From NCBI RefSeq assembly GCF_001571225.1, contig NZ_BCTJ01000005.1, forward strand, positions 62,001-126,000: a stretch of 64,000 nt of DNA. The letters are read 5' to 3'. The notes under the pieces are model-generated. The model did not search any database. It saw only the letters and a list, made by a program, of their open reading frames with translations, and was not told the DNA's origin. Made by a program: the position numbers and the translations under genes. Of this stretch, positions 15,219-30,240 are shown in pieces (position 1 is the stretch's first letter; each line of letters starts with the position of its first letter). The stretch comes from Hydrogenophaga palleronii NBRC 102513. GTDB taxonomy: Bacteria > Pseudomonadota > Gammaproteobacteria > Burkholderiales > Burkholderiaceae_C.

Positions 15219-16898
15219 ATGAACCAACAGACTTTGACCGCCGACGTGCTCATCGTGGGCGCAGGCCCGGTGGGCCTGACCCTCGCCATGGATCTCGCTT
15301 CGCGCGGCGTGCGCGTCGTAATCGCCGAAACCCGCCGCCGTGGCGAGCCCCCCAGCGTGAAGTGCAACCACGTGGCCGCCCGCACCATGGAGCAGTTCCG
15401 CCGCCTGGGCGTGGCGCAGAAGGTGCGCCAGGCTGGCCTGCCCGAGGACTACCCGAACGACGTGGTGTTCCGCACGTCCTTCACCGGCCAGGAGCTCACG
15501 CGCATTCCCATTCCCTGCCGGCGCGACCGCTACACCGCCGAAGGTGGCCCGGACACCTGGTGGCCCACGCCGGAGCCACCGCACCGGATCAACCAGATTT
15601 ACCTGGAGCCGATCCTGCTGGAGCACGCGGCGGCCTTGCCCGGCGTGTCGCTGCACGACCGCACGCAGATCACCGGCTTCACGCAGGACGATGACGGCGT
15701 GGTCGCCACCGCCCTGGGCCTGGACGACGGCCACAGTTTCGACATCCGTTGCCGCTACATGGTGGGCTGCGACGGCGGCAGCTCGACCGTGCGCAAGAGC
15801 ATGGGCGCGAAGCTCGAAGGCACGCCGGTGATCCAGCGCGTGCAGTCGACCTACATCCGCGCACCGGGTCTGCTTGAACGCGTGCCCGGCACGCCGGCCT
15901 GGTCGTGTTACGCGGTCAACCCGCGCCGCTGCGGCACGGTCTTCGCCATCGACGGGCAAGACCGCTGGCTGGTCCACAACCACCTCAACCCGCACGAGCC
16001 GGACTTCGAGTCGATCGACCGCGACCAGTCGATCCGGGAGATTCTCGGTGTCGGGCCCGACTTCGAATACGAAGTGATCAGCAAGGAAGACTGGGTGGGC
16101 CGACGCCTGGTGGCAGACCGGTTCCGGCAAGGCCGTGTCTTCCTCGCCGGCGACGCCGCTCACCTGTGGGTGCCCTATGCGGGTTACGGCATGAACGCCG
16201 GCATTGCCGACGCGGTCAACCTCGGCTGGCTGCTCGGCGCCTGCATCCAGGGCTGGGCCGACGAACAGGCGCTGGACGCGTACGAGCTCGAACGCCAGCC
16301 GATCACCGAACAGGTGTCGCACTTCGCCATGGACCACGCGCAGAAGATGATCCGCGCCCGCAGCGCCGTGCCGCCGGACATCGAGGCGCCCGGCCCCGAT
16401 GGCGAGGCCTTGCGCGCCGCCATGGGACAGGAAGCCTACGAACTCAACGTGCAGCAGTTCTGCTGCGCGGGCCTGAACTTCGGCTACTTCTATGCGGACT
16501 CTCCGTTGATCGTGTCCGATGGCGAGGCGCCACCGCCTTACACCATGGGCAGCTTCACCGCGTCCACCGTGCCCGGCTGCCGCGCGCCCCACTTCTGGCT
16601 GGAGGACGGACGCTCGCTGTACGACGCCTTCGGCCCGGGCTACACGCTGTTGCGCAGCAACCGCGCGGTGGACATCGAGCCCCTGCTGCAGGCCGCGCGG
16701 CAAGCGGGCATGCCATTGGCCGTGATCGATGTGGCGGCCGCGCAGCTGCCCGAAGGCTACCGCCACCCGCTGGTGCTGTGCCGCGCCGACCAGCACGTGG
16801 TGTGGCGCGGCGAGCGCGTGCCCGAGGACGCCGGTGCGTTGGTCGCCCGCCTGTGCGGGCGCGCCCATGCGCTGGTGCCCGAGGCACTCAGTGGCTGA
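15219..16898 (+). CDS. FAD-dependent monooxygenase (aromatic hydroxylase, PheA/PHBH type)
   Basis: 559 residues. The FAD-binding loop VGAGPVGL is at residues 13-20, the DG-type motif VGCDGGSSTVRK is near residue 185, and the second FAD motif GDAAHLWVPYAGYGMN starts at 311. A C-terminal ~150-residue thioredoxin-like extension (FGPGYTLLR..., ending VVWRGERVPEDAGALV) is of the kind seen in phenol hydroxylase/MhpA-type enzymes. It should hydroxylate a small aromatic compound with NAD(P)H and oxygen; the substrate is unknown. No ring-cleavage gene is nearby, so the product must be handled elsewhere. The 3' end overlaps the convergent fmdB by 11 bases. Confidence 0.85.
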   Translation: MNQQTLTADVLIVGAGPVGLTLAMDLASRGVRVVIAETRRRGEPPSVKCNHVAARTMEQFRRLGVAQKVRQAGLPEDYPNDVVFRTSFTGQELTRIPIPCRRDRYTAEGGPDTWWPTPEPPHRINQIYLEPILLEHAAALPGVSLHDRTQITGFTQDDDGVVATALGLDDGHSFDIRCRYMVGCDGGSSTVRKSMGAKLEGTPVIQRVQSTYIRAPGLLERVPGTPAWSCYAVNPRRCGTVFAIDGQDRWLVHNHLNPHEPDFESIDRDQSIREILGVGPDFEYEVISKEDWVGRRLVADRFRQGRVFLAGDAAHLWVPYAGYGMNAGIADAVNLGWLLGACIQGWADEQALDAYELERQPITEQVSHFAMDHAQKMIRARSAVPPDIEAPGPDGEALRAAMGQEAYELNVQQFCCAGLNFGYFYADSPLIVSDGEAPPPYTMGSFTASTVPGCRAPHFWLEDGRSLYDAFGPGYTLLRSNRAVDIEPLLQAARQAGMPLAVIDVAAAQLPEGYRHPLVLCRADQHVVWRGERVPEDAGALVARLCGRAHALVPEALSG

Positions 16899-17232
16899 TC
16901 ATCCAGGGGCGCTTTGACGGGAAGGCCTTGGCCCCGTTCGGGGCCGTCACCGTGGCCTTGCTGCGCCCGGCGGTGCTGCAGCAGCCGCACCCGGCCGGGT
17001 GTTTGAGCCGCTGGTAGTCGCGCGACATCTTCGGTTCGTGCCGCGCGCGCTCGTTGATGCCGATGGCGGTGCGCGTGCCGCCGTCCATGAGCGCCAGGCG
17101 CGGCGCGCTCACGAACACGCGCGGCGAGGCGGTGCCGCAGTCCGGGCAACAGGCCGGTTCGTTGCGTTCGCTCAAGGGACGGAACGCATCGAAGCCACCG
17201 CAGGCCGGGCAGTCGTAGTCGTAGGTGGGCAT
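16888..17232 (-). CDS. fmdB: FmdB-type zinc ribbon protein
   Basis: 114 residues. The N-terminal zinc ribbon (PTYDYDCPACGG, C8/C11, and CCPDC, C29/C32) is the standard FmdB start; such proteins are often placed next to formamidase and may be regulators. The rest is basic with a cysteine cluster (HPAGCGCC). The gene begins 4 bases after the formamidase stop, so it is the last gene of the urt-fmd operon, and its 3' end overlaps the convergent monooxygenase gene. Confidence 0.82.
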   Translation of the reverse strand: MPTYDYDCPACGGFDAFRPLSERNEPACCPDCGTASPRVFVSAPRLALMDGGTRTAIGINERARHEPKMSRDYQRLKHPAGCGCCSTAGRSKATVTAPNGAKAFPSKRPWMISH

Positions 17233-17236
17233 GGCG

Positions 17237-18463
17237 TCAGAGGTCTGGCGACAGGGGCATCACCACCGAACCATCGAGGTGCTTGATCGGCCCGTTCGCG
17301 TTCGGGTTGATGTCGAACTCGAAGATCTGCGTCGGCAGCCACAGCGTGGCGCAGGCATTGGGCACGTCCACCACACCGCTGATGTGGCCCTGCACCGGCG
17401 CGGTGCCGAGGATGGAGTAGGCCTGCGCGCCCGAGTAACCGAACTTCTTCAGGTACTCGATGGCGTTCAGGCAGGCCTGGCGGTAGGCCACGTTCACGTC
17501 CAGGTAGTACTGCTTGCCGCTTTCGTCGACGCTGATGCCTTCGAAGATCACGTAGTCGTTGTAGGTCGGCACGATCGGGCTGGGCTTGAAGATCGGGTTC
17601 TTGATGCCGTACTTGGCCATGCCGTCCTTGATGATCGACACCTTCATGTGCACCCAGCCGGCCATTTCGATGGCGCCGCAGAAGGTGATCTCGCCGTCAC
17701 CCTGGCTGAAGTGCAGGTCGCCCACGCTCAGGCCCGCGCCTTCCACGTACACCGGGAAGAAGACTTTGGAGCCGCGCGAGAGGTCCTTGATGTCGCAATT
17801 GCCACCGTGTTCGCGCGGGGGCACGGTGCGCGCGCCGGTGGCCGCCGCCTTGGCCTTGGCGTCGCCGGTGAGCTTGCCCATGTGCGCGGTGCCGGCAAAG
17901 GGCGGGTTGGCCAGGCCGCTGGTGGCCGGGTCGGAATCGATCAGCGCCTGCTCGCGCGTGTTCCAGGTCTCCAGCATCTTCGGGTCGGGCAGGCAACCGA
18001 TGAGGCCGGGGTGGATCAGGCCGGCGTACTTCACACCGGGCACGTGGCGCGAGGTGGTGAACATGCCATGGAAGTCCCAGATCGACTTCTGCGCCTGCGG
18101 GAAATGCTCGGTGAGGAAGCCACCACCGTTCTTCTTGCTGAAGAAACCGTTGAAGCCCCAGAGGCTGTCGTCCTTGGCACCGATGTCGAGCAGCTCGACC
18201 ACCAGCAGGTCACCCGGCTGCGCGCCCTTCACGCCCACCGGGCCGCTGAGATAGTGCACCGTGGTCAGGTCGATGTCGCGCACGTCGTCCGCGCTGTCGT
18301 TGTTCTGGATGAAACCACCGGTCCAGTCGTAGGTCTCCAGCACGAAGTCGTCGCCGGGGTTGACCCAGCAGGCCATGGGAATGTCCGGGTGCCAGCGGTT
18401 GTGCACCATCTCGTTGGAAGGTGCGGGTTGGTTCAGATCGACTTTGATGAGGGTTTCAGGCAT
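17237..18463 (-). CDS. fmdA: Formamidase
   Basis: A 408-residue cytoplasmic enzyme of the acetamidase/formamidase family, hydrolysing formamide (and weakly other short amides) to ammonia and the acid. The length and the start (LIKVDLNQPAPSNEMVHNRW) match FmdA of Methylophilus methylotrophus as I know it. Conserved segments include DFHGMFTTSRHVPGV, PREHGGNCDIKDL, YVEGAGLSVGDLHFSQGDGE and PTYNDYVIFEGISV. It lies 37 bases downstream of urtE in the same operon, so amide uptake and hydrolysis are genetically linked. The ATG at 18463 is preceded by AAGGAG. Assignment is firm. Confidence 0.93.
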   Translation of the reverse strand: MPETLIKVDLNQPAPSNEMVHNRWHPDIPMACWVNPGDDFVLETYDWTGGFIQNNDSADDVRDIDLTTVHYLSGPVGVKGAQPGDLLVVELLDIGAKDDSLWGFNGFFSKKNGGGFLTEHFPQAQKSIWDFHGMFTTSRHVPGVKYAGLIHPGLIGCLPDPKMLETWNTREQALIDSDPATSGLANPPFAGTAHMGKLTGDAKAKAAATGARTVPPREHGGNCDIKDLSRGSKVFFPVYVEGAGLSVGDLHFSQGDGEITFCGAIEMAGWVHMKVSIIKDGMAKYGIKNPIFKPSPIVPTYNDYVIFEGISVDESGKQYYLDVNVAYRQACLNAIEYLKKFGYSGAQAYSILGTAPVQGHISGVVDVPNACATLWLPTQIFEFDINPNANGPIKHLDGSVVMPLSPDL

Positions 18464-18500
18464 GGCTTGTGCTCCTTGGGTGGGCGGAAAAAAAAGGGAA

Positions 18501-19190
18501 TCAGACGGAGAGGTAGGACTTGATGCGCTGCTGGTCGGTGTCGGCGCGGTCGGTCTCGTGCACCAGGCGGCCGCCTTCGATGACGAACAGGCGGTCGGCC
18601 ACGTCCATGGCGAACGAGAGCACCTGCTCGGAGACCACGATGGTGATCTTTCGCATCTTGCGGATCTCGTTGAGCGCCTTGGCGATGTCCTTGATGATCG
18701 AGGGCTGGATGCCTTCGGTGGGCTCGTCGAGCAGCAGCACCTTGGGGTCGGTGACGAGCGCGCGCGCGATGGCCAGCTGCTGTTGCTGGCCGCCCGAGAG
18801 GTTGCCGCCCTTGCGCCGGCGCATCTCCCACAGCACGGGGAACAGCGCGTAGATCTCTTCGGGCACCACCTTGTACTTCGCGTTCTCCAGGCCGGTCTGG
18901 ATGTTCTCTTCCACGGTGAGCGTGGGAAAGATCATGCGGCCCTGCGGCACATAGGCAATGCCCTTGGCCACGCGCTGGTAGCTCTCGAGCTTCGTCACGT
19001 CCTGCCCGGCCACCGAGATGTGGCCGCTCTTGGCAGGCAACACACCCATGAGGCTCTTGAACAGCGTGGTCTTGCCCATGCCGTTGCGGCCCATGATGGC
19101 CACCGCCTCGTTCTCGCGCGCCTCGAACGAGATGCCATGCAGCGCCTGGCTCTGGCCATAGGCGACGACAAGGTCCTTGACTTTCAGCAT
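18501..19190 (-). CDS. urtE: Urea ABC transporter ATP-binding subunit UrtE
   Basis: A 229-residue LivF-type ATPase. It has Walker A GRNGMGKTT (about residues 36-44), the signature LSGGQQQQLAIARAL, Walker B LLLDEPTEGIQPS, the typical UrtE reading. It pairs with UrtD to drive the UrtBC permease. It is the fifth gene of urtABCDE, with 10 bases between its start and the urtD stop. The order urtABCDE followed by fmdAB points to urea or short-chain amides; relatives of these systems (fmdDEF) carry amides in methylotrophs. Confidence 0.9.
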   Translation of the reverse strand: MLKVKDLVVAYGQSQALHGISFEARENEAVAIMGRNGMGKTTLFKSLMGVLPAKSGHISVAGQDVTKLESYQRVAKGIAYVPQGRMIFPTLTVEENIQTGLENAKYKVVPEEIYALFPVLWEMRRRKGGNLSGGQQQQLAIARALVTDPKVLLLDEPTEGIQPSIIKDIAKALNEIRKMRKITIVVSEQVLSFAMDVADRLFVIEGGRLVHETDRADTDQQRIKSYLSV

Positions 19191-19200
19191 GGTGGTTCCT

Positions 19201-19944
19201 TCAATGGCCGAGGTACACGTCGATGACCTTGGGGTCGGCCTGCACCTGGTCCATCGGCCCTTCGGCCAGGATCTTTCCCTGGTGCATGACGGTGACCTTG
19301 TGCGCGATCTTCTTGACGAAGTCCATGTCGTGCTCGATCACGATCACGGCGCGGTTCTGGCAGATGCGGTGCAGCAGCTCGGCGGTGAGGTCGCGCTCCT
19401 TGGCGCTCATGCCGGCAATGGGTTCGTCGAGCATCAGCAGCTCGGGCTCCTGCATCAGCAGCATGCCGATCTCCAGCCACTGCTTCTGGCCGTGCGAGAG
19501 CAAGCCGGCCTCGGTGTCGAGCTTGTCGGCCAGGCCGATGTCTTCGGCCACGGCCTTCACGCGCGCCTGGATCTCCTCGGTGGCGGTGAAGGCCAGCGCG
19601 CCCCACACCGAGCGGCCCGCCGGGAACGACACCTCCAGGTTCTGCAGCACCGAGAGGTTCTCGTAGATCGACGGTGTCTGGAACTTGCGGCCGATGCCCT
19701 TGCGCACCCGCTTGTGCTCGGGCACCTTGATGATTTCCTCGTTCTTGAACTTGATGCTGCCGCCGCTGGCCTTGGTCTTGCCGCAGATCAGGTCCAGCAG
19801 CGTGGTCTTGCCCGCGCCGTTGGGGCCGATGATCACGCGCAGCTCGTTCTTGTCGACGTAGAGGGTGAGGTTGTCGATGGCCTTGAAGCCGTCGAAGGAG
19901 ACGCTGAGGTCTTCCACGGAGAGGGCGAAGTCGGTGTTGCTCAT
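19201..19944 (-). CDS. urtD: Urea ABC transporter ATP-binding subunit UrtD
   Basis: A 247-residue LivG-type ATPase. Walker A is GPNGAGKTT (about residues 38-46); KTKASGGSIKF and RKFQTPSIYENLSV are UrtD-typical, followed by the signature region LSHGQKQWLEIGMLL and Walker B LLMLDEPIAGMS. The start is placed at 19944, after GGGGAGA, instead of an in-frame ATG at 19989 that would lie within the urtC coding end. The 3' part of urtC ends at 19964, leaving a 19-base gap. Confidence 0.92.
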   Translation of the reverse strand: MSNTDFALSVEDLSVSFDGFKAIDNLTLYVDKNELRVIIGPNGAGKTTLLDLICGKTKASGGSIKFKNEEIIKVPEHKRVRKGIGRKFQTPSIYENLSVLQNLEVSFPAGRSVWGALAFTATEEIQARVKAVAEDIGLADKLDTEAGLLSHGQKQWLEIGMLLMQEPELLMLDEPIAGMSAKERDLTAELLHRICQNRAVIVIEHDMDFVKKIAHKVTVMHQGKILAEGPMDQVQADPKVIDVYLGH

Positions 19945-19963
19945 GATGGTGTTCTCCCCGTGG

Positions 19964-21172
19964 TCACACGCCCTGGCCGCGGGTGCCATCGGGCAGCGTC
20001 ACGTCCACCGCAGGCGGGTTGCTCTTCGCCATTGGGGCGTGTGGGGGTGGCGAGGGCGGCTGGGGCCGGGCGGCAGACGCTTCGCGCAGCGCGGCCTGAC
20101 GCGACTTCCACCACGGCACGATCCTGCTTTCCCACAGGCCGGCCAGTCCCATCGGGAAGGCCATGGTCACGCCGATGAACAGCGCGGCCATGAGGAACAG
20201 CCAGGCGTCCGGGAAGCTCTCGGAGAAGAAGGTCTTGCCGGCGTTGACCAGCAGCGCGCCATACACCGCACCCACCAGGCTCATGCGTCCGCCCACGGCG
20301 GCGTAGATCACCATCTCGATCGAAGGCACGATGCCCACGAAGCTCGGCGACATGAAGCCCACCTGCAGCGTGAACATGGCGCCACCGATGCCCGACAGCG
20401 CAGCCGCGAGACAAAACACGAAGATGCGGAAGTCGGCCACGTCGTAGCCCGAGAAGCGCACGCGGTCTTCCTTGTCGCGCATGGCCAGCAGCAGCGTACC
20501 GAGCTTGCTGGTCTGCACCCAACGGCACAGCACGATGGACAGCACCAGCAGACCGACGCAGACGTAATACAGGATGTATTTGGCGCTGTCGGTTCGCGTG
20601 TCCCAGCCCATCAGGGTCTTGAGGTCGGTCATGCCGTTCACGCCGCCGGTATAGCCCTGCTGGCCGATGATGAGCACGGTGAGGATGAGTGCCACGGCCT
20701 GCGTGATGATGGCGAAATACACGCCGCCCACGCGGCGCTTGAACATGGCGAAGCTGATGATCCAGGCCAGCAGCATCGGCACCACGATGACGGCGGCCAG
20801 CGCGAAGGGAAAGCTCTTGAACGGCACCCAGAAGCCGGGCAGCTCGGTGATCTGGTTCCAGTCCATGAAGTCCGGAATGCCGGGGGTGGACTGGATCTTG
20901 GTGCTCTCGGGGTCCGAGGCCTCCAGCTTCAGGAACATCGCCATGGCGTAACCGCCCAGGCCGAAGAACACGCCCTGCCCCAGGCTGAGCACGCCACCGT
21001 AGCCCCAGAGCATCACCAGGCCGATGGCGACGAAGGCGTAGGTGAGGTACTTGCCGACCAGGTTGAGGCGGAAGATGTCGAGGCTGAGCGGCAGCACCAC
21101 CGCCAGCAGCAGCGTGAGCAGCACCAGGCTGGCGAGCTGGTAGCGGTTGATCCAGGCTTTCAGGGCGTTCAT
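19964..21172 (-). CDS. urtC: Urea ABC transporter permease subunit UrtC
   Basis: A 402-residue inner-membrane permease of the LivM type with about ten hydrophobic segments. UrtC-like segments are LWGYGGVLSLGQGVFFGLGG and RRVGGVYFAIITQA, a central loop with TGGVNGMTDL, and the EAA-like region AMRDKEDRVRFSGYDVADFR. The C-terminal ~50 residues form a proline/alanine-rich cytoplasmic tail (ASAARPQPPSPPPHAP...) not needed for the fold. It forms the membrane channel with UrtB. Confidence 0.92.
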   Translation of the reverse strand: MNALKAWINRYQLASLVLLTLLLAVVLPLSLDIFRLNLVGKYLTYAFVAIGLVMLWGYGGVLSLGQGVFFGLGGYAMAMFLKLEASDPESTKIQSTPGIPDFMDWNQITELPGFWVPFKSFPFALAAVIVVPMLLAWIISFAMFKRRVGGVYFAIITQAVALILTVLIIGQQGYTGGVNGMTDLKTLMGWDTRTDSAKYILYYVCVGLLVLSIVLCRWVQTSKLGTLLLAMRDKEDRVRFSGYDVADFRIFVFCLAAALSGIGGAMFTLQVGFMSPSFVGIVPSIEMVIYAAVGGRMSLVGAVYGALLVNAGKTFFSESFPDAWLFLMAALFIGVTMAFPMGLAGLWESRIVPWWKSRQAALREASAARPQPPSPPPHAPMAKSNPPAVDVTLPDGTRGQGV

Positions 21173-21196
21173 GAACGTACTCCGGGTGCAAAAAAA

Positions 21197-22117
21197 TCAG
21201 CGACGGACTTTGCTGGCGAACAAGCCTTGGGGGCGGAACATCAGGATCACCACGATCAGCGAGAGCGTGAGCATCTTGGCCATGGAGCCGGCCATGAAGA
21301 ACTCGGAGATCGACTGCGTCTGGGCGATGCCGAAGGCCGAGACCACGGTGCCCAGCAGGCTGGCCGCACCGCCGAAGGTGACGACCAGGAAGGCGTCAAC
21401 GATGTAGAGCGAACCCGAGGTCGGGCCGGTGGAGCCGATGGTGGTGAAGGCCGCACCGGCCACGCCGGCGATGCCGCAACCCATGGCGAAGGTCAGGCGG
21501 TCGGTCTTCTTCGTGTCGATGCCGATGGCATTGGCCATCACGCGGTTGCTCACCGTGGCGCGCACCCGCAGGCCCCAGCGGCTCTTGTGCAGCGCGATCA
21601 GCACGCCGGCCGTGACCACTGCGGCGAGTGCGAGCACGAACATGCCGTTGATGGGAATGTCCAGCCCTTCGGCCGGTGCCCACGAACCCAGCAGCCAGTC
21701 GGGCAGCGTGGGGCTCACTTCCTTCGGCCCGATGAAGGTGCGGAAGCACTGTTGCAGCGCCAGGCTGATGCCCCAGGTGGCCAGCAGCGTGTCCAGCGGG
21801 CGCTTGTAGAGGTGGCGGATCAGCGCCCACTCCACCAGCCAGCCCGCGATGAAGGCGAAGAGAAAAGCGGCCAGGATGGCGAACGGAAAGTACGCCGCCA
21901 CCGCGCCGGGGCTGATGGCGTTGGCCAATGTCGAGCCCAGAAAGACGGTGTAGGCACCGATGGTCATGAACTCGCCGTGCGCCATGTTGATCACGCCCAT
22001 CTGCCCGAAGATGATGGCCAGCCCCAGGCCCATGAGCAGCAGCACCGCAAACAGGCTGAGGCCGGCGAAGCCCTGCATCAGGCCGATGTTGAGCAAGTCG
22101 TTGAAACTCATGTCCAT
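21197..22117 (-). CDS. urtB: Urea ABC transporter permease subunit UrtB
   Basis: A 306-residue LivH-type inner-membrane permease with about eight hydrophobic helices. Segments such as IFGQMGVINMAHGEFMTIGAY, VEWALIRHLYKRPLDTLLAT and RATVSNRVMANAIGIDTKK are characteristic. Several urtB products carry a long N-terminal extension; this one has the short form starting MDMSFNDLLNIGLMQG. It is separated from urtA by 137 bases containing copy F of the structured intergenic repeat, which could set different levels of binding protein and permease. Confidence 0.92.
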   Translation of the reverse strand: MDMSFNDLLNIGLMQGFAGLSLFAVLLLMGLGLAIIFGQMGVINMAHGEFMTIGAYTVFLGSTLANAISPGAVAAYFPFAILAAFLFAFIAGWLVEWALIRHLYKRPLDTLLATWGISLALQQCFRTFIGPKEVSPTLPDWLLGSWAPAEGLDIPINGMFVLALAAVVTAGVLIALHKSRWGLRVRATVSNRVMANAIGIDTKKTDRLTFAMGCGIAGVAGAAFTTIGSTGPTSGSLYIVDAFLVVTFGGAASLLGTVVSAFGIAQTQSISEFFMAGSMAKMLTLSLIVVILMFRPQGLFASKVRR

Positions 22118-22169
22118 GAGGACTCTCCAGGCAAAAGAAAAGGCAACGAGAGCAGAAGCTCAAGTCCAG

Positions 22170-22242
22170 GATGCGGCGGATCCGGGTTTCCCGGTCCGCA
22201 CGCATCGCCCCCTTGAGGGGGTCACGGCGCTGCTGCGCCGTG
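22170..22242 (-). repeat. Structured intergenic repeat, copy F
   Basis: Read on the minus strand, in the direction of transcription: CACGGCGCagcaGCGCCGTG, CCCCCTCAAGGGGG, then GATGCG/CGCATC enclosing GCGGA/TCCGC and CCGGG-AAA-CCCGG. All three nested stems differ in sequence from copies A and E but remain fully paired. It sits between urtA and urtB. Confidence 0.82.
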
Positions 22243-22254
22243 GCGGGAGTGGGC

Positions 22255-23520
22255 TTACTGATAACCCTTGGGAAACGGATCGGGTTTGATCAGGTCCGGC
22301 GACTCGGAGACCACCTTGAAGGTCGCGTCCGGCATGCCCATGGCGATGCGCGACTTGCTCCACAGGTGGTGGTTGGCATCGATCTTCACGTAGCCTTCCG
22401 GCGCGGTCTTGAGCTCGATGCCGGGCGAAGCGGCCACGACCTTGGCCACGTCGAAGCTCTTGGCTTTTTCCACCGCGGCCTTCCACAGCCAGGGGCCGAG
22501 GTAGGCGGCCTGGGTCACGTCGCCGATCACCGCGTCCTTGCCGAATTTGGCCTTGAAGGCGGCCACGAATTTCTTGTTGTTCTCGTTGTCGAGCGTCTGG
22601 AAGTACTTCATCGACGAGTAGAAGCCGGCGAAGTTTTCACCGCCCACGCCGGTCATTTCGTCCTCGGTCACCGACAGCGTCACCAGCAGCTGCTTGTCGC
22701 CGGTGATGCCGGCCGCCTTGAGCGCCTTGTAGAAGGCCACGTTGGAGCCACCGACCACGGCGCAGAAGATGCAGTCGGGCTTTTGCAGCTTGATCTTGTT
22801 CATCAGCGAGCCGAAGTTGGTGCTGCCCAGCGGGTAGTACTCCTCGCCGACGACCTTGCCCTTCTGGAAATTCTCGATGTGCTTGCGCGCGATCTTCATC
22901 GAGGTGCGCGGCCAGATGTAGTCGGAGCCGATCAGGAAGAAGGTCTTGGCCTTCTTCTCTTTCTGCGCCCAGTCCAGGCTGTACAGAATCTGCTGCGTGG
23001 CTTCCTGGCCGGTGTAGATCACGTTCTTGGACTGCTCCAGGCCTTCGTAGAAGGTGGGGTAGTACAGCAGGCCGTTTTCCTTCTCGAACACCGGCAGCAC
23101 GGCCTTGCGCGAGGCCGAGGTCCAGCAGCCGAAGACGGCGGCGCAGCGGTCGTTGATGAGCAGCTTCTTGGACTTCTCGGCGAAGTTGGGCCAATCGGAG
23201 GCGCCGTCTTCCTTGATGACCTTGATCTTGCGGCCCAGGATGCCGCCCATGGCGTTGATCTCGTCGATGGCGAGCTGCTCGGCCTGGATCGAACCGGTTT
23301 CCGAGATCGCCATGGTGCCGGTGGACGAGTGCAGGATGCCGACCGTGACCTCGGTGTCGGTCACCGCCAGCTTGGTGGTGTTCACCGAGGCGGTGGGCTG
23401 GCCAAAGCTCCAGGCCGGCAGGCCGGCCAGGCCGGCGGCGCCCAGCATCTGCAGCACACGGCGGCGGCTGGCTTCGGGCGTTTCGAGGGAGACGGCGTGG
23501 GGTTCGGAGAGGTGCTTCAT
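22255..23520 (-). CDS. urtA: Urea/short-chain amide ABC transporter substrate-binding protein UrtA
   Basis: A 421-residue periplasmic binding protein. The N-terminus has a Tat-type signal (SRRRVLQMLGAAGLAGLP, residues ~17-34). The mature part shows UrtA/FmdD-like motifs: VTVGILHSSTGTMAISETG, CWTSASRKAVLPVFEKENGL, YPTFYEGLEQSKNVIYTGQ and GSDYIWPRTS. The start at 23520 follows GGAG; the frame extends upstream to 23760 but that extension crosses the promoter region and the divergent gene, so it is rejected. First gene of urtABCDE-fmdAB. Urea versus formamide/acetamide cannot be separated by eye. Confidence 0.9.
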   Translation of the reverse strand: MKHLSEPHAVSLETPEASRRRVLQMLGAAGLAGLPAWSFGQPTASVNTTKLAVTDTEVTVGILHSSTGTMAISETGSIQAEQLAIDEINAMGGILGRKIKVIKEDGASDWPNFAEKSKKLLINDRCAAVFGCWTSASRKAVLPVFEKENGLLYYPTFYEGLEQSKNVIYTGQEATQQILYSLDWAQKEKKAKTFFLIGSDYIWPRTSMKIARKHIENFQKGKVVGEEYYPLGSTNFGSLMNKIKLQKPDCIFCAVVGGSNVAFYKALKAAGITGDKQLLVTLSVTEDEMTGVGGENFAGFYSSMKYFQTLDNENNKKFVAAFKAKFGKDAVIGDVTQAAYLGPWLWKAAVEKAKSFDVAKVVAASPGIELKTAPEGYVKIDANHHLWSKSRIAMGMPDATFKVVSESPDLIKPDPFPKGYQ

Positions 23521-23605
23521 GAGGGGCTCCAGGACGTTGTGGACTGTGAGACCGGCGGGCTGCCGACTGGGGTTGAAGACTAGGGAAAGCCCCTGCATCA
23601 GCCCA

Positions 23606-23621
23606 TACGTCAAATAACGTA
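23606..23621. promoter_or_regulatory. Candidate NarL/LuxR-type 7-2-7 operator between urtA and the permease-kinase gene
   Basis: TACGTCA-AA-TAACGTA: two inverted heptamers with one mismatch and a 2-base spacer, the geometry known for NarL-type response-regulator dimers. It lies 85 bases upstream of urtA and 23 bases upstream of the divergent ATG at 23645. The regulator at 27078 has the right type of DNA-binding domain (inference). Confidence 0.55.
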
Positions 23622-23644
23622 GAGAGCCCGTCTGGCGAGCGGGG

Positions 23645-26600
23645 ATGGTTCTTGCTAGCGTGCTGGGCATGCCCTCACCCGAGCCCGCCAAACCCGTTGC
23701 CACGCAGAAAATCTTTCGCTTCCGGCGCGAGTACAACTCCTGGGTGGCCGACGAAACCATGGAGGACTACGCCCTGCGCTACACCCCGCGCAGCTTCCGG
23801 AAATGGAGCGAGTGGCGGGTGGCCAACACCGCGTTCGGCTCGCTGTCCTTCCTGGCGCTGGAAGCCATCGGTGGCGCCATCGCCGTCAACTACGGCTTCA
23901 CCAACGCCATGTGGGCGATCCTGGTGGTGGGCCTGATCATCTTCTTCACCAGCCTGCCGATTGCCTACTACGCCGCGCGCTACGGGCTGGACATGGACCT
24001 GCTCACCCGCGGCGCGGGCTTCGGTTACCTGGGCTCGACCATCACCTCGTTGATCTACGCGGTGTTCACCTTCATCTTCTTCGCCATCGAGGCGGTCATC
24101 ATGGCGCTCGCGCTGGAGATGGCGACCGGCTGGCCCCTGCCCTGGTGTTACCTGGTCTCGGCGCTGGTGATCGTGCCGCTGGCCATCCGCGGCATCACGC
24201 TGATCTCGCGCCTGCAGGCCTGGACGCAGCCGCTCTATCTGTTCCTGCTGCTGTTGCCCTTCGTGTGGATCGCGCTCTCGCAGCCCCAGCTGTACCGCGA
24301 CTTCACCAGCCTCACCGGCATCCGCTCGGGCAGCAACAGCTTCCAGCCGCTGATGTTCGGCGCCGCCGCGGCGGTGATCTTTTCGCTCGTGGTGCAGATC
24401 GGCGAGCAGGTGGACTTTCTGCGCTTCATGCCCGAGCGCACGAAGCAGAACCGCGCGCGCTGGTGGATGGCGGTGCTGATTCCGGGGCCGGGCTGGATCG
24501 TCATGGGCATGCTCAAGATGGTGGGCGGCGCCTTCCTCGCGTTTGCCGCCATGCAGTTCGAGGTCAACCCCGAACGCACCTCGGAGCCGACGCAGATGTT
24601 CCTGGCCGGCTTCACCGAGGCGGTGGGCCACCCCGGCCTGGCGGTGGTGATGACGGTGGTGTTCGTGGTGCTGGCACAGATCAAGATCAACGTCACCAAT
24701 GCCTATGCCGGCTCGCTGGCTTGGAGCAACTTCTTCGCCCGCGTCACGCACAGCCACCCCGGCCGCGTGGTCTGGCTGGTGTTCAACGTCTGCATCGCCA
24801 CGCTGCTCATGCTGCTGGGCGTGTTCGCCGGCCTGGAGAAGGTGCTGGGTGTCTACAGCAACGTGGCGATTGCCTGGGTCGGCGCGCTGGTGGCCGACCT
24901 CATCATCAACAAGCCGCTGGGCCTGAGCCCCAAGGGCATCGAGTTCCGTCGCGCCTACCTGTACGACTTCAACCCGGTCGGCATGGGCTCGATGCTGATC
25001 GCCGCGCTGGTCGCCAGCCTCGCCTACACGGGTGTCATGGGCGAATACGCCGCAGCGTTCTCGCCCTTCATCGCACTCGGCCTGGCGCTGCTGCTGTCGC
25101 CGCTGATCGCCTGGGCCACCCAGGGCCGCTACTACCTGGCGCGCCAGCCGTCGAGCGACTGGGCACCCGGCGAAGTGGTGCGCTGCGCGGTGTGCGAGAA
25201 CCGGTTCGAAGCCGACGACATGGCGAGCTGCCCGGCCTACAGCGCACCCATCTGCTCGCTCTGCTGCTCGCTCGAATCGCGCTGCCACGACCGCTGCAAG
25301 AGCAACTCGCGCGCCATCGACCAGCTGCGCGGCGCGCTCACCGCCGTGCTGCCGCAGGGCATGGTGGTGCGCGTCAACTTCCGTGCCGGGCAGTTCCTCG
25401 CGGTCTGGCTGTCGCTGAGCGCGGTCATGGCCTTCCTGATCGGCATGGTGTATGTGCAGGAGAGCCTGCACGCGCCGGCCGAGGCGCTGCAGTCGCCACT
25501 TCTCAAGATCTACGCCTTCCTGGTGCTGCTGGCCGCGGTGTGTGCCTGGTGGGTGGTTCTGACCACCGACAGCCGGCGCATGGCGCAGGACGAGTCCGAA
25601 CGGCAAACCCAGTTGCTGACGCAGGAGATCGACGCCCACCGCCGCACCGATGCCGAACTGCAGTCCGCCCGCGACCGGGCCGAGGCCGCGAGCCAGGCCA
25701 AGACGCGTTATGTGGCCGGCATGACGCACGAGCTGCGCACGCCACTCACCAGCATCCTGGGCTATGCACAAATCCTGCTGAAGAACCACGACCTCTCGGT
25801 CTGGGTGCGCGAGACCATCGCCACCATGCAACGCAGCGGGCAGCACATGCACGCGCTGATCGACGGCTCGCTCGACCTTGCCCGCATCGAGGCCGGCCGC
25901 CTGAAGCTGGACCCGGTGCCACTGCCGCTGGCCCAGTTGCTGGAAGACGTGGGGCGCATGGTGCGCCCGCAGGCCGAGGCGAAGGGCCTGCGCTTCGTGG
26001 TGCTGCAGGAAGGTGAACTGCCGGCCTGGGTGCGCGCCGACGCCAAGCGGTTGCGGCAGATCCTCATCAACCTGCTGAGCAACGCGGTGCGCTTCACCGA
26101 CGAGGGCCAGATCACGCTGCGGCTGGACTTCCGCCAGCAAGTGGCCCGCATCGACGTGGTGGACACCGGCATCGGCATCGCGCCGCGCGACCAGCAGCGC
26201 ATCTTCCTGCCGTTCGAGCGAGGCAGCGCGGGCCGGCGTGCGCTGGACAGCGGCACCGGTCTGGGCCTGACCATCACCCACCTGCTGACCGACATGATGG
26301 GCGGCGAGCTGCTGCTCAAGAGCCGGCCCGGCCACGGCAGCACCTTCTCGCTGCGGCTGTACCTGCCACCCATTCCGTCCGACCCCAAGCATCCGCTGCC
26401 GATCCCCTCCACCCTGCGCGCGATCACCGGCTACCTCGGTCCGCGCCGCACCCTGCTGGTGGTGGACGACCAGCCTCTGCACCGCCAGCTGCTGGCCAGC
26501 ATCCTGGTGCCGCTGGGTTTCGTGGTGCGCGAAGCGGCCAGCGGCCAGGAGTGCCTGGAGATCATCGAACAGCACGCGCCCGACGGCCTGCTGCTCGACC

Positions 26601-27094
26601 TGACCATGGACGGCCTGGACGGCTGGCAGACCGCCGCCGCAGTGCGCAAGCTGCTGCCACCCGAGCGCCTGCCCATCGTGTTCGTCTCGGCCAACCTGTT
26701 CGACAACCGGCCCGAACAACTCACCGCGCTGGACTGCCAGGCCTTCGTCGCCAAGCCCATCACCGAGTCCGAGCTGCTCGACGCGCTGCGGTTCGCGCTG
26801 GCACTCGAATGGGTGACCGAGCAGGCGCCGGCCGCCACACCGGTGCAAGTGGCGCGCCACCGCATCACCGGCCAACCCCTGCCCGACGACCTGCGCGAAG
26901 AGCTGCAACGCCTGGCGCGCCAGGGCCAGGCCGCCGCGCTGCGCCAACGCCTGCGGCAGGCCCAGACCACCTACCCCGCGCACGCCGCCACGCTGGTGCT
27001 GCTGCAGTCGTGCGCCGACCGCTTCGACTTTCAGACCCTGATCGAATACCTCAGAGACACCGCGGAGTTGACCGACGATGACATCGAGCATTGA
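23645..27094 (+). CDS. NCS1 permease-like / hybrid histidine kinase fusion
   Basis: 1149 residues. Residues ~50-490 form a 12-helix NCS1 (nucleobase/allantoin/hydantoin permease) domain (FRKWSEWRVANTAFGSLSFL; NVTNAYAGSLAWSNFF). Residues 514-551 hold eight cysteines (514, 517, 529, 537, 540, 541, 547, 551). Two more helices (~580-645) and a short coiled coil lead into a HisKA domain (MTHELRTPLTS, H695), an HATPase (NLLSNA with N813, DTGIGIAP, GTGLGLTI), a receiver (D985, K1037) and a ~90-residue helical tail. It probably senses a nitrogenous solute through the permease domain and signals to the regulator gene it overlaps by 17 bases. Transport is unproven. ATG 23669 is an alternative start. 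Confidence 0.88.
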   Translation: MVLASVLGMPSPEPAKPVATQKIFRFRREYNSWVADETMEDYALRYTPRSFRKWSEWRVANTAFGSLSFLALEAIGGAIAVNYGFTNAMWAILVVGLIIFFTSLPIAYYAARYGLDMDLLTRGAGFGYLGSTITSLIYAVFTFIFFAIEAVIMALALEMATGWPLPWCYLVSALVIVPLAIRGITLISRLQAWTQPLYLFLLLLPFVWIALSQPQLYRDFTSLTGIRSGSNSFQPLMFGAAAAVIFSLVVQIGEQVDFLRFMPERTKQNRARWWMAVLIPGPGWIVMGMLKMVGGAFLAFAAMQFEVNPERTSEPTQMFLAGFTEAVGHPGLAVVMTVVFVVLAQIKINVTNAYAGSLAWSNFFARVTHSHPGRVVWLVFNVCIATLLMLLGVFAGLEKVLGVYSNVAIAWVGALVADLIINKPLGLSPKGIEFRRAYLYDFNPVGMGSMLIAALVASLAYTGVMGEYAAAFSPFIALGLALLLSPLIAWATQGRYYLARQPSSDWAPGEVVRCAVCENRFEADDMASCPAYSAPICSLCCSLESRCHDRCKSNSRAIDQLRGALTAVLPQGMVVRVNFRAGQFLAVWLSLSAVMAFLIGMVYVQESLHAPAEALQSPLLKIYAFLVLLAAVCAWWVVLTTDSRRMAQDESERQTQLLTQEIDAHRRTDAELQSARDRAEAASQAKTRYVAGMTHELRTPLTSILGYAQILLKNHDLSVWVRETIATMQRSGQHMHALIDGSLDLARIEAGRLKLDPVPLPLAQLLEDVGRMVRPQAEAKGLRFVVLQEGELPAWVRADAKRLRQILINLLSNAVRFTDEGQITLRLDFRQQVARIDVVDTGIGIAPRDQQRIFLPFERGSAGRRALDSGTGLGLTITHLLTDMMGGELLLKSRPGHGSTFSLRLYLPPIPSDPKHPLPIPSTLRAITGYLGPRRTLLVVDDQPLHRQLLASILVPLGFVVREAASGQECLEIIEQHAPDGLLLDLTMDGLDGWQTAAAVRKLLPPERLPIVFVSANLFDNRPEQLTALDCQAFVAKPITESELLDALRFALALEWVTEQAPAATPVQVARHRITGQPLPDDLREELQRLARQGQAAALRQRLRQAQTTYPAHAATLVLLQSCADRFDFQTLIEYLRDTAELTDDDIEH

Positions 27095-28037
27095 ACCTGT
27101 TTCCCCTCCGTCGCCACCACCGGCGAGCCAACCGGTGATCCTGGTGGTGGATGACGCGGTGGACACCCTGCGCATGCTGGGCGACGCGCTGGTGGCCGAA
27201 GGCTATGTGGTGCTGGCCGCGCGCGATGCCGACGAAGCACTGGAGCGCTTCGAAGTCGCGGTGCCCGACGGCGTGCTGCTCGACGCGGTGATGCCCGGCA
27301 TGGACGGTTTCGCCTTCTGCGAAAAGATCAAGGCCACACCGGCCTGGTCGCACGTGCCCATCGTCTTCATGACCGGCCTGTCGGAAAGCGAGCAGATCCT
27401 GCGCGGCTTTGCCTGCGGCGGCGTGGACTATGTGGTGAAGCCGCTGCGCATTCCCGAGGTGATGGCGCGACTGGCCACCCATGTGCGCAACGCGCGCGTG
27501 GCGCGCCTGGCGCAGGAAGCGGTGGACGTGGCCGGCATGGGCACCGTGGTGCTGGACACCCAGGGCCGCATGGCCTGGCGCTCACCGCAGGCCACCGCCT
27601 GGCTGGAACTGGCCTTCGGCAACGGCGCCGACGCCGGCCAGCGCAGCCGCGAATGGCTGGGCGCCGCGGTCTTGCACAACGAAACCACCCGCGACCTCGG
27701 CGGGCGCCAGGGCCGCCTGCTGGCACGCCACATGGGCCAGGGCAACCTGGGCGAATCCATGCTGCTGCTGACCCTGACGCCAGCCGACAGCGCCAGCGCC
27801 AGCGCCAGCGCCGCCGGGTCGAGCGCCCAACGCCTGCGCGAGATCGCCCTGACGCCGCGCGAAACCGAAGTGCTGTCCTGGCTGGCCAAAGGCAAAACCA
27901 ACCGCGACATCGCCGACATCCTGGGCATGAGCCACCGCACGGTGAACAAGCACCTGGAGCATGTGTTCGAAAAGCTGGGGGTGGAAACGCGATCTGCGGC
28001 GGCGGCGATTGCAGGAAAGTTGTTGCCGCAGGATTGA
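27078..28037 (+). CDS. LuxR/NarL-type response regulator
   Basis: 319 residues. The receiver domain (VVDDAVDTLRML, acidic pair D25/D26, phospho-acceptor D69 in VLLDAVMPGMDG, K121) is followed by a middle section (~140-240) that may be a weak PAS-like fold (GMGTVVLDTQGRMAWRSPQA) and an Ala/Ser-rich linker. The C-terminal helix-turn-helix (LTPRETEVLSWLAKGKTNRD, then ILGMSHRTVNKHLEHVFEKL) starts near residue 257. It overlaps the permease-kinase gene by 17 bases, so they form one signalling pair. The likely target is the 7-2-7 palindrome before urtA (inference). A decayed copy of its C-terminal part lies at 32738-32945. Confidence 0.88.
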   Translation: MTSSIEPVSPPSPPPASQPVILVVDDAVDTLRMLGDALVAEGYVVLAARDADEALERFEVAVPDGVLLDAVMPGMDGFAFCEKIKATPAWSHVPIVFMTGLSESEQILRGFACGGVDYVVKPLRIPEVMARLATHVRNARVARLAQEAVDVAGMGTVVLDTQGRMAWRSPQATAWLELAFGNGADAGQRSREWLGAAVLHNETTRDLGGRQGRLLARHMGQGNLGESMLLLTLTPADSASASASAAGSSAQRLREIALTPRETEVLSWLAKGKTNRDIADILGMSHRTVNKHLEHVFEKLGVETRSAAAAIAGKLLPQD

Positions 28038-28111: not shown

Positions 28112-29191
28112 ATGACCGCTTCATCCCCCCACACCTCCTCGCCCGCGGCACCACTGCGCCTCACCAGCTTTTCACACGGCGGCGGTTGCGGCTGCAAGAT
28201 CGCGCCGGGTGTGCTGTCCAGCATCCTCCAGCACAGCGCCAACGGCATCATTCCGCCCGAGTTGCTGGTGGGCATCGAGACGTCGGACGACGCGGCGGTC
28301 TATCGGCTCAACGACGAGCAGGCGCTGGTGGCGACCACCGACTTTTTCATGCCCATCGTCGACGACCCCTACGACTTTGGCCGCATCGCCGCCACCAACG
28401 CGATCAGCGACGTCTATGCCATGGGAGGCAAGCCCATCATGGCGCTGGCCATCGTTGCCATGCCGGTCAACGCGCTGCCGGTGCAGGTGATCGGCGAGGT
28501 GCTGCGCGGCGGCCAGGACGTCTGCAAGCTCGCCGGGATTCCCATCGCCGGCGGCCACACCATCGACTCTGTCGAGCCCATCTACGGCCTCGTGGTGCTG
28601 GGGCTGGTGCACCCCGACCGCGTGCGGCGCAACCGCGATGCGCGCGCGGGCGACGTGCTGGTGCTGGGCAAGCCGCTGGGCGTGGGCGTGTTGTCTGCAG
28701 CCTTGAAGAAAGAACAGCTGGACGCCGCGGGCTACCAGCGCATGGTGGCCACCACCACCCAGCTCAACACGCCCGGCCCGGCGCTGGCCGCGCTTGACGG
28801 TGTGCACGGCCTGACCGACATCACCGGCTTCGGCCTGGCGGGCCACACGCTGGAACTCGCGCGCGGCGCGGGCCTGCGTGCCGTGATCGACTGGAGCACG
28901 GTGCCGCTGATCGAGGGTGTGCTGGATCTGGCCGCGCAGGGCTGCATCACCGGCGCCTCCGGGCGCAACTGGGCCGGCTATGGCACCGCCGTGCAACTCG
29001 ACCCGGCGCTGCCGCCCCTGGCCCAGGCCCTGCTGTCCGATCCACAAACCAGTGGCGGCCTGCTGGTGAGCTGCGCGCCCGATGCGGTGGACGCGGTGCT
29101 GGCGCTGTTCCAGAACCAGGGCTTCGGTGGCGCGGCGGTGATCGGCCACCTGCAAGCCGACAGCACACCCGGCCTGACCATCCGGCCATGA
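28112..29191 (+). CDS. selD: Selenide, water dikinase
   Basis: A 360-residue enzyme that makes selenophosphate from selenide and ATP. The catalytic N-terminal motif GGGCGCK has Cys26 and Lys29, matching Cys17/Lys20 of E. coli SelD, so this is the cysteine rather than selenocysteine form. The AIRS-type ATP site is visible (TTDFFMPIVDDPYDFGRIAA, AMGGKPIMAL, GGHTIDSVEPIYG) and LLSDPQTSGGLLVS lies near the end. The start at 28112 is in frame well downstream of the ORF's first codon and fits the family's N-terminus. It overlaps selU by 4 bases. Confidence 0.93.
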   Translation: MTASSPHTSSPAAPLRLTSFSHGGGCGCKIAPGVLSSILQHSANGIIPPELLVGIETSDDAAVYRLNDEQALVATTDFFMPIVDDPYDFGRIAATNAISDVYAMGGKPIMALAIVAMPVNALPVQVIGEVLRGGQDVCKLAGIPIAGGHTIDSVEPIYGLVVLGLVHPDRVRRNRDARAGDVLVLGKPLGVGVLSAALKKEQLDAAGYQRMVATTTQLNTPGPALAALDGVHGLTDITGFGLAGHTLELARGAGLRAVIDWSTVPLIEGVLDLAAQGCITGASGRNWAGYGTAVQLDPALPPLAQALLSDPQTSGGLLVSCAPDAVDAVLALFQNQGFGGAAVIGHLQADSTPGLTIRP

Positions 29192-30240
29192 AGGGACCGG
29201 TGCGGGTCACCGACCGGGCTGACTACGATGCGCTGATCGACGCGCGCTCGCCCGCCGAGTACGCCATCGACCACATCCCGGGCGCCATCAACTGCCCGGT
29301 GCTGGACAACGAAGAACGCCGCATCGTCGGCACGCTGTTCAAACAACAGGGCGCTTTCGAGGCGCGGCGGGTGGGCGGCGCCATGGTGGCCAGCAACCTG
29401 GCGCGCCACCTGCGCGAACAGTTCGCCGACAAGCCCGCCAGCTGGAAACCCCTGGTGTACTGCTGGCGCGGCGGCATGCGCTCCGGCTCCATGGTCACCT
29501 GGCTGCGCCTGGTGGGCTGGAACGCGCAGCAACTGGCCGGTGGCTACAAGAGCTGGCGCCGCCATGTGATCCAGCTGATCGACACCCTGGCGCCGCAGTT
29601 GCGCACCACCGTGCTCTGCGGCGCCACCGGCAGCGCCAAGACGCGCGTGCTGCACGCATTGGCCGCACAGGGCGAACAGGTGCTGGACCTCGAAGGCCTG
29701 GCCTGCCACAAGGGTTCGCTGCTGGGCGCCCTGCCCGACCGGCCGCAGCCTTCTCAGACCGCGTTCGAGACCGGCATTGCCGCGGTGCTGGAGCGTGTGG
29801 ACCTGCAACGGCCGCTGTACGTGGAGGGCGAGAGCCGCCGCATCGGCCGCCTCAACGTGCCGGTCGACCTTGTCGAGCGCATGCGCGAGAGCCCGGTGGT
29901 GGAAGTGCAGGCCGGCTTCCCCGCGCGGCTGGACTACCTGCTGCGCGACTACGCCTACCTGGGCGACCGGCCCGACTGGCTGGCCGGCCAGCTGGCGCTG
30001 CTGAAGGAATTGCACGGCAAGGAAAGGACGGCCGCCTGGCAAGCCATGGCGCAGGCCGGCGACCTGCGCAGCCTCTTCGCCGAGCTGGCGCAGCGCCACT
30101 ACGACCCCGCCTACGCCAAGTCGCAGCGCGCGCAATTCAACCAGTGGGCGCAACGCACGCCGGTGGCCACCGACGATCTGTCGGACGCCGGCATTGCCCG
30201 CGTGGCCCAGGCCATCGCGGCCTCGGCGGTGGGCCGCTAA
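29188..30240 (+). CDS. selU: tRNA 2-selenouridine synthase (MnmH/SelU)
   Basis: 350 residues. An N-terminal rhodanese domain holds the catalytic cysteine C92 (LVYCWRGGMRSGSM). A C-terminal P-loop domain (GATGSAKT at 145-152) binds the geranyl donor. It replaces 2-thio- or geranyl-thiouridine at the wobble base of some tRNAs with 2-selenouridine, using selenophosphate from SelD. The ATG lies inside the selD stop, so the two are translationally coupled. No selA or selB is adjacent, which fits selenium use for tRNA in this operon, though they may lie elsewhere. Confidence 0.92.
   Translation: MKGPVRVTDRADYDALIDARSPAEYAIDHIPGAINCPVLDNEERRIVGTLFKQQGAFEARRVGGAMVASNLARHLREQFADKPASWKPLVYCWRGGMRSGSMVTWLRLVGWNAQQLAGGYKSWRRHVIQLIDTLAPQLRTTVLCGATGSAKTRVLHALAAQGEQVLDLEGLACHKGSLLGALPDRPQPSQTAFETGIAAVLERVDLQRPLYVEGESRRIGRLNVPVDLVERMRESPVVEVQAGFPARLDYLLRDYAYLGDRPDWLAGQLALLKELHGKERTAAWQAMAQAGDLRSLFAELAQRHYDPAYAKSQRAQFNQWAQRTPVATDDLSDAGIARVAQAIAASAVGR

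Follow-up and report, generated by a model that had tools for sequence, protein, structure and literature searches.

Introduction

Few transporter-kinase fusions are understood, and it is an open question for the field which part of the transport cycle gives the signal. One such fusion is encoded in the 64,000-nucleotide stretch of Hydrogenophaga palleronii NBRC 102513 analysed here (contig NZ_BCTJ01000005.1, positions 62,001 to 126,000; referred to as the window), where a permease domain of the NCS1 type is joined to a hybrid histidine kinase, with a LuxR-type response regulator encoded directly after it and the urtABCDE-fmdAB genes of urea and amide uptake and hydrolysis on the opposite strand. 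What does the permease half sense, and which genes does the kinase control? We propose that the protein is probably a permease-derived receptor for urea or short amides, which would drive urt and fmd through the regulator and a palindromic DNA site.

The kinase-regulator pair has been listed beside urt in two genome papers that make no functional claim in their available text (PMC2907700, PMC13296017), one of which has a nitrogen-fixation cluster table for Dechloromonas aromatica in which a 1131-amino-acid kinase and a 308-amino-acid receiver protein adjoin urtA (PMC2907700). A preliminary description of the window, made from its letters alone, knew of no NCS1-based kinase circuit, and no study of an NCS1-kinase fusion is among the literature matches listed, a weak absence because most subscription papers lie outside the search. 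Here, we describe by computation the architecture of the kinase, its NCS1 fold and homology, its invariant residues, its gene association, the DNA site and a group of sister permeases.

Results

An NCS1-type domain in a hybrid histidine kinase

The kinase reading frame at 23645-27094 (+) encodes 1149 amino acids from its listed start, and that of the 319-amino-acid regulator (27078-28037, +) overlaps it by 17 nucleotides. The preliminary description had reported both the overlap and the 1149 residues; the former was found as described and the latter holds for the open frame, but the gene probably starts at ATG 23669 (1141 amino acids), because a sigma54-like site at 23641-23656 covers ATG 23645, which was dropped as the start for that reason. 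The parts of the two genes are as follows.

23669..27094 (+), hybrid sensor kinase with NCS1-type permease domain (Pfam, structure model, fold search, hhalign); probable start, the frame opening at 23645
23750..25117 (+), NCS1-type 12-helix domain, residues 36-491 of the window kinase (P0001), from hhalign, Foldseek and invariant residues
25184..25297 (+), Cys module and possible zinc site, C514-x2-C-x11-C-x7-C-x2-CC-x5-C-x3-C551, eight Cys
25379..25564 (+), two further membrane-length helices in the AlphaFold model, the second entering a coiled coil before HisKA
25697..25897 (+), HisKA with phospho-acceptor H695 (Pfam; His in 147 of 147 aligned rows)
26039..26365 (+), HATPase_c (Pfam)
26456..26788 (+), C-terminal receiver domain of the kinase, D985 (Pfam; D in 139 of 147 rows)
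27078..28037 (+), LuxR-type response regulator, receiver and GerE helix-turn-helix (Pfam)

Pfam places HisKA at residues 685-751, HATPase at 799-907 and the receiver at 938-1048, and with the HisKA histidine and a separate receiver-GerE partner the protein is a hybrid histidine kinase. We read an AlphaFold model of residues 21-704 (pLDDT 80.8, pTM 0.80) as 12 core helices, the first of them broken, followed by a small Cys module rich in strands and by two membrane-length helices (model positions 559-586 and 592-683, to which 20 is added for residue numbers), the last of them continuous with the coiled coil. The succession of Cys-rich module, two more helices, HisKA, HATPase and receiver, and the LuxR type of the regulator, are thus as the preliminary description had them.

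That description had also claimed a full 12-helix NCS1 permease-like domain, which stands by homology and fold but is invisible to the curated Pfam model: PF02133 matched none of 41 sequences at E <= 1 (the window protein and 40 relatives, alignment A1), nor the window kinase at 0.1. The profile of A1 aligns by hhalign over 386 columns with that of 29 NCS1 proteins, including Escherichia coli CodB (probability 99.3, E 4.5e-20), and Mhp1 and CodB make up the best five of 483 Foldseek matches of the model in the PDB (E 3.5e-9 to 3.8e-7, TM-score by target 0.60-0.72). Because of this profile match and these top structure matches, the N-terminal domain is assigned to NCS1. Neither the single window protein nor a stand-alone NCS1 relative gave a match in searches of PDB sequences, where a profile search matched kinase linkers alone; short kinase-linker matches also dominated the profile search of the phylum, from which full-length matches alone were used. 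Membership of the SLC5-STAC kinases was dropped since NCS1 structures outrank SLC5 in Foldseek (NIS rank 6, SGLT2 rank 17); no STAC match was found in Pfam or among the best 25 NCBIfam rows, libraries that may hold no STAC model. Among the genome_contigs matches listed, the best for the sensor domain are mostly metagenome-assembled genomes of Hydrogenophaga (85-92%), and the nearest records may be missing. One relative, a 623-amino-acid frame at L231:6842-8710, has helices 13-14, kinase, receiver and a partial Cys module and no permease domain.

Residues of the substrate site

Conservation was scored over 147 rows, 117 of them at 40-90% identity to the window protein; the set was not de-duplicated and holds the window protein twice. 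E149, D257, R260, K347, N349, N352, Y354, H695 and all eight Cys are invariant, and the position of receiver D985 has D in 139 rows, a gap in seven and L in one. The eight Cys may form a zinc site.

In CodB, the substrate is held in an aromatic sandwich of W108 and F204 (PMC9379551). The preliminary description had proposed a comparison of substrate-site residues, and CodB positions mapped from the hhalign alignment, not from coordinates, show N280 and Y285 kept (N349 and Y354), Q105 replaced by T142 and W108 by F145, the last position being F in 135 rows and L in 12. The aromatic of transmembrane helix 6, F204, appears to be lost: it maps to aliphatic V249, in a column of V, I, M or L in 146 rows and S in one, although this mapping lies near an alignment gap and the 29 NCS1 proteins also vary there. 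The hydroxyls of the Na2 sodium site, T278 and T279, correspond to K347, invariant, and I348, where all rows have I or V, so that the Na2 hydroxyl ligands are absent from the sensor domain. Four positions after the W108 equivalent stands E149, which we take to be the position of Mhp1 Q121 (assuming that Mhp1 W117 equals CodB W108). As a caution, the 29 NCS1 proteins also vary at the Na2 positions, and five of them have E at the Q121 position. These residues point to a small polar ligand; the sensor domain probably does not use sodium, and it may have no transport activity at all.

Association with urea and amide genes

The preliminary description placed the kinase divergent from urtABCDE-fmdAB, and these genes do occupy the opposite strand at 16888-23520 (-), with urtA beginning at 23520. 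The names urtA, urtB and urtE come from comparison with annotated plasmid genes.

22255..23520 (-), urtA, substrate-binding protein of urea/short-chain amide ABC transporter
21197..22117 (-), urtB
19964..21172 (-), urtC (tblastn and position)
19201..19944 (-), urtD (tblastn and position; start picked by eye)
18501..19190 (-), urtE
17237..18463 (-), fmdA, formamidase/acetamidase (Pfam FmdA_AmdA 6.3e-181)
16888..17232 (-), fmdB-type zinc-ribbon protein (Pfam Zn_ribbon_8 7.7e-12)

A sample of 399 genomes of the order holds 71 strong kinase loci in 67 genomes. Six genomes with weak or stray matches (G026, G147, G207, G279, G315 and G375) and secondary pieces of the same loci were left out of the counts, neighbour families come from a simple open reading frame caller that miscalls some genes, and counts across genomes carry shared ancestry uncorrected. 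Markers of urt, urease or formamidase lie near 59 of the 71 loci. A close UrtA (E <= 1e-120) is within 25 kb of 39 loci, on the opposite strand (divergent) in 23 and on the same strand, 6-16 kb apart, in 16; for 20 of the remaining 32, the stretch fetched contains a marker of urt, ure or fmd that reaches E <= 1e-8, although some of these markers are only 36-50% identical or cut by a contig end. The kinase is present in 41 of 53 genomes with a close UrtA versus 26 of 346 without (Fisher p 2e-27, relatedness uncorrected), and the consistent urt/fmd neighbourhood on which the preliminary description had staked its proposal is therefore found. Among 80 relatives from genome_contigs, UrtA is near 73 and FmdA near 63, counts that are biased because the set is ranked by similarity to the query. 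Across 120 loci, a regulator-family frame occurs in 90 (an earlier count of 75 of 80, from partial tblastn matches, some of them perhaps to other receivers, was set aside) and a carbon-nitrogen hydrolase family, presumably aliphatic-amidase-like, in 38 (one member scanned).

The same genome encodes a second NCS1-type kinase, 51% identical, at L009:8199-11699 (contig C24). It has its own regulator and is divergent from the adjacent ureA and ureC; CstA, a Cache-domain kinase and another UrtA-like binding protein are encoded nearby. Five of six loci of this urease-linked type have urease markers.

A shared palindrome between urtA and the kinase gene

The interval between urtA and the kinase gene contains three sequence features.

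23606..23621 (no strand), palindrome TACGTCAAATAACGTA, candidate response-regulator binding site, 86 bp upstream of the urtA ATG
23577..23582 (-), TAGTCT, candidate -10 hexamer of urtA, 23 nucleotides past the palindrome
23641..23656 (+), sigma54-like -24/-12 site before the kinase gene

The palindrome is the sole TACGT-N6-ACGTA in the 4.84-Mb genome, and 84 exact copies of this core occur in the 120 partly related loci versus 0.4 expected under an order-1 Markov model. It is present in 20 of 21 divergent urtA-kinase pairs of other genomes, G361 being the one without, and many Pseudomonas loci have a second copy near fmdA. Thirty-eight other kinase-positive genomes hold 49 copies, 25 of them within 600 bp of a urtA or kinase start, versus 17 copies in 38 kinase-negative genomes; 12 genomes with UrtA and no kinase have seven copies, none within 10 kb of UrtA.

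The hexamer that begins 24 nucleotides after the palindrome on the urtA strand has A second in 56 and T sixth in 54 of 74 distinct sequences; this count used a loosened TACG[TC]-N6-[AG]CGTA and the copy nearest urtA, which in Pseudomonas is a degenerate second copy rather than the exact one. The -10-like hexamer is absent from the two Klebsiella rows. Because of its spacing to the candidate -10 hexamer, the palindrome would be centred near -42, a position at which LuxR-type activators often bind. Before the kinase gene, scored with the general sigma54 consensus, 64 of 79 loci have a sigma54-like site with a score of at least 9, versus 7.8 expected from shuffles, as do 17 of 22 loci of a second group, versus 2.7 expected.

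Stand-alone sister permeases

Plasmid records include a 535-amino-acid protein named 'allantoin permease', which has 45% identity across the NCS1 core and the first part of the Cys module, and such stand-alone permeases are 43-53% identical to the sensor domain. The 535-amino-acid type is encoded within the urease clusters of Acinetobacter plasmids and, in a 5.4-Mb Klebsiella record, behind ureG; other stand-alone relatives stand beside fmdA in Moraxella and Tsukamurella. Genes for ure or fmd are in the stretch fetched for 10 of 15 stand-alone rows. The site signature of the sensor domain recurs in all 15 rows (14 distinct), save for a single F-to-Y change and the column of V249, which varies, and 13 of the 15 keep at least four of the eight Cys. 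A search of viral_contigs found no relative of the stand-alone permease.

Kinase and permease genes are in some genomes neighbours. On a Methylovirgula plasmid (L241), fmdB and fmdA are followed in turn by the genes for kinase, regulator, permease and an aliphatic amidase; an A. baumannii record has a divergent kinase-permease pair, separated by a palindrome with one mismatch, and no ure or fmd marker. A class sample of 377 genomes contains six stand-alone forms in five genomes, with the kinase close to one in four of the five. At four loci (L244-L247) the palindrome lies between the kinase and either the permease or fmdA: two have the order kinase, palindrome, permease, fmdA, fmdB, one has kinase, palindrome, fmdA, permease, and one has permease, palindrome, kinase, without fmdA. 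A quick tree of 63 rows groups all 39 kinases in one clade (SH-aLRT 99) and leaves the permeases outside, which suggests that the kinase fusion arose once.

Five stand-alone permeases recorded as cytosine or allantoin permease or as hypothetical protein (L232, L235, L238, L239 and L241) are found in urease or formamidase clusters, and these database names are probably wrong.

Discussion

A proposed receptor derived from a permease

The shared DNA site, the urease-adjacent second kinase and the stand-alone permeases together narrow the likeliest ligand to urea or short amides, and for the window-type kinase the fmdA neighbours favour amides, as has also been argued for the urt-amidase cluster of Bradyrhizobium (PMC3098086, in its available text). 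In the mechanism that we propose, the NCS1-type domain would bind urea or a short amide such as formamide or acetamide in the old substrate site, and the helix bundle would then shift, a movement relayed by the Cys module and by helices 13-14 to the long coiled coil, so as to set HisKA autophosphorylation. Phosphate would reach the co-encoded LuxR-type regulator, which would bind palindromes of the type TACGTCAwwTGACGTA – in the urtA promoter with their centre near -42, in Pseudomonas before fmdA as well, and in other genomes before a sister permease or fmdA – and activate the genes of uptake and hydrolysis. A putative sigma54-type promoter of the kinase gene may add control by nitrogen limitation; urt genes and urea or acetamide use have been linked to NtrC (PMC5491218, PMC9311074, as far as their available text goes). 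We infer control of urt-fmd by the pair from the neighbours and the shared DNA site, and the same standing applies to ligand binding, the direction of the signal, contact between regulator and site, and activation. The suggestion in the preliminary description that the permease half senses a nitrogenous solute beside urt/fmd gains support from the gene association, the palindrome at the urtA promoter and the permease paralogues beside urease and formamidase.

The simplest account of its origin would be a single capture of a urea/short-amide permease by a kinase, whose receptor it became. More broadly, we lean slightly towards the view that an undescribed clade of NCS1-type urea/short-amide permeases, sodium-independent by virtue of the invariant Na2 lysine, gave rise once to a receptor-kinase family that extends from cyanobacteria to proteobacteria, and that in some lineages receptor and clade transporter face each other across the regulator's site, sharing a ligand and an ancestor.

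Several observations weigh against the receptor reading. Nearly half of the palindrome copies in the 38 other kinase-positive genomes (24 of 49) are more than 600 bp from a urtA or kinase start, four of these within 20 kb; an exact copy is by the kinase in only 10 of 24 further kinase-positive genomes; Bradyrhizobium mostly has TACGC-N6-GCGTA instead; and the urease-linked kinase type has no palindrome within 420 bp before the kinase, nor was a site of its own found there. The control genomes with UrtA and no kinase partly represent another UrtA type, because 8 of the 12 lack a close UrtA and have one at 51-61% identity instead. As to neighbours, 12 of the 32 loci without a close UrtA also lack a urt, ure or fmd marker in the stretch fetched, two of them adjoining nifHDK-draT; four of these 12 loci (L180-L183) have longer kinase frames of 1376-1415 amino acids, and perhaps these longer kinases have another ligand; and 5 of 15 stand-alone permeases (L236, L237, L240, L247 and L248) have no ure or fmd marker nearby. 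Finally, no HPt domain was recognised for this hybrid kinase, so the route of the phosphate is putative.

Alternative explanations

The NCS1 half could still be a working transporter that moves urea or amides, probably with protons, and reports the flux to the kinase, which we regard as possible but doubtful. Its site residues agree with those of the stand-alone permeases to the extent given above, and CbrA, itself a transporter-kinase, transports histidine and has a lysine in its Na2 site (preprint PMC13022988, available text); yet transport by the kinase seems redundant, because many kinase genomes carry urtABCDE or a sister permease for uptake. That the domain senses a classical NCS1 ligand (nucleobase, hydantoin or allantoin), with urt-fmd reached only within general nitrogen control, would suit the homology to CodB and Mhp1 and the recording of stand-alone relatives as 'allantoin permease' and 'cytosine permease', but is unlikely: the column aligned with the second aromatic of the clamp (CodB F204) has V, I, M or L in 146 of 147 rows and S in the other, the neighbours are urease, formamidase and carbon-nitrogen hydrolase genes, and no nucleobase genes were recognised among the neighbours named or scanned, which are part of all neighbours. 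A nucleobase sensor was dropped on these grounds.

It is similarly improbable that the permease part is a mere anchor and the Cys module the sensor, of zinc or redox state. The invariance of the eight Cys and the L231 frame, which keeps helices 13-14, kinase and some Cys without a permease, would agree with it, but the substrate-site residues are equally invariant, and the module is not specific to signalling because most stand-alone permeases retain at least half of the Cys. Hitch-hiking, in which the kinase-regulator pair has other targets and only accompanies urt-fmd, seems very unlikely; common descent and transfer of the whole block, including on Klebsiella plasmids, speak for it, but the association survives changes of gene order (divergent or same-strand arrangements, and urease or permease in place of urt), and the palindrome is found on the urtA, fmdA or permease side.

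Relation to known systems

Like the proposed receptor, the SLC5-STAC histidine kinases CbrA and CrbS of Pseudomonas and Vibrio fuse a sensor of transporter (LeuT) fold to a histidine kinase. The Na2-site lysine of CbrA is K196 (preprint PMC13022988), compared here with K347 without a claim that the two lie on the same helix, and the CrbS partner CrbR is, in the available text of PMC5715377, a LuxR-family regulator acting via an inverted repeat, as proposed for the regulator here. They differ in being SLC5 rather than NCS1, in having STAC where the window kinase has the eight-Cys module and two helices, and in DNA site and target genes. The Kuenenia Amt-HK, likened by description alone, also joins a transporter domain for a nitrogen compound to a histidine kinase, but with an Amt domain and ammonium as ligand (PMC5764959, available text). 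CodB and Mhp1 share their fold with the sensor domain, and CodB and 28 other NCS1 proteins also show profile homology; N280 and Y285 of CodB are kept, whereas the sensor domain has no PF02133 match, appears to have lost the helix-6 aromatic, replaces T278/T279 by K347/I348 and carries a kinase. Another NCS1 protein, MetT, is described as a metformin transporter (PMC13390362, available text).

Klebsiella CG307 UTS (preprint PMC13060141) and the Bradyrhizobium urt-amidase cluster (PMC3098086) comprise the same kinds of transporter and formamidase genes; the available text of both names the transporter and enzymes and not an NCS1-kinase control system. The Klebsiella urt-formamidase cluster has been suggested to help in the urinary tract (preprint PMC13060141, available text). 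Two Klebsiella plasmids examined here, which may differ from the CG307 plasmid, carry the kinase and palindrome too. From the receptor reading, both a DNA site and target genes can be predicted for clusters of urea/formamide uptake, some on Klebsiella plasmids, and the urease-cluster permeases that records name after allantoin or cytosine may in fact carry urea or amides. Because the sister permeases share the site residues and in some genomes lie next door, receptor and transporter can be compared directly.

Other loci and neighbouring genes

The sensor domain matches 342 Klebsiella plasmid records. The two plasmid loci (L233 and L234) have a urt-formamidase block, kinase and palindrome, with heat-shock or arsenic genes nearby. 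In a cyanobacterial locus, L097 of Elainella saxicola, there are two frames for the kinase, and FmdA and a receiver-MarR protein are encoded close to it. At L161 and L162, the kinase is directly beside draT and nifHDK (L161 scanned, L162 with the same families), which suggests a link to nitrogen fixation. In the window itself, the regulator gene is followed at 28172-30240 by AIR-synthase-type and rhodanese-type genes, presumably SelD-like and SelU-like, respectively.

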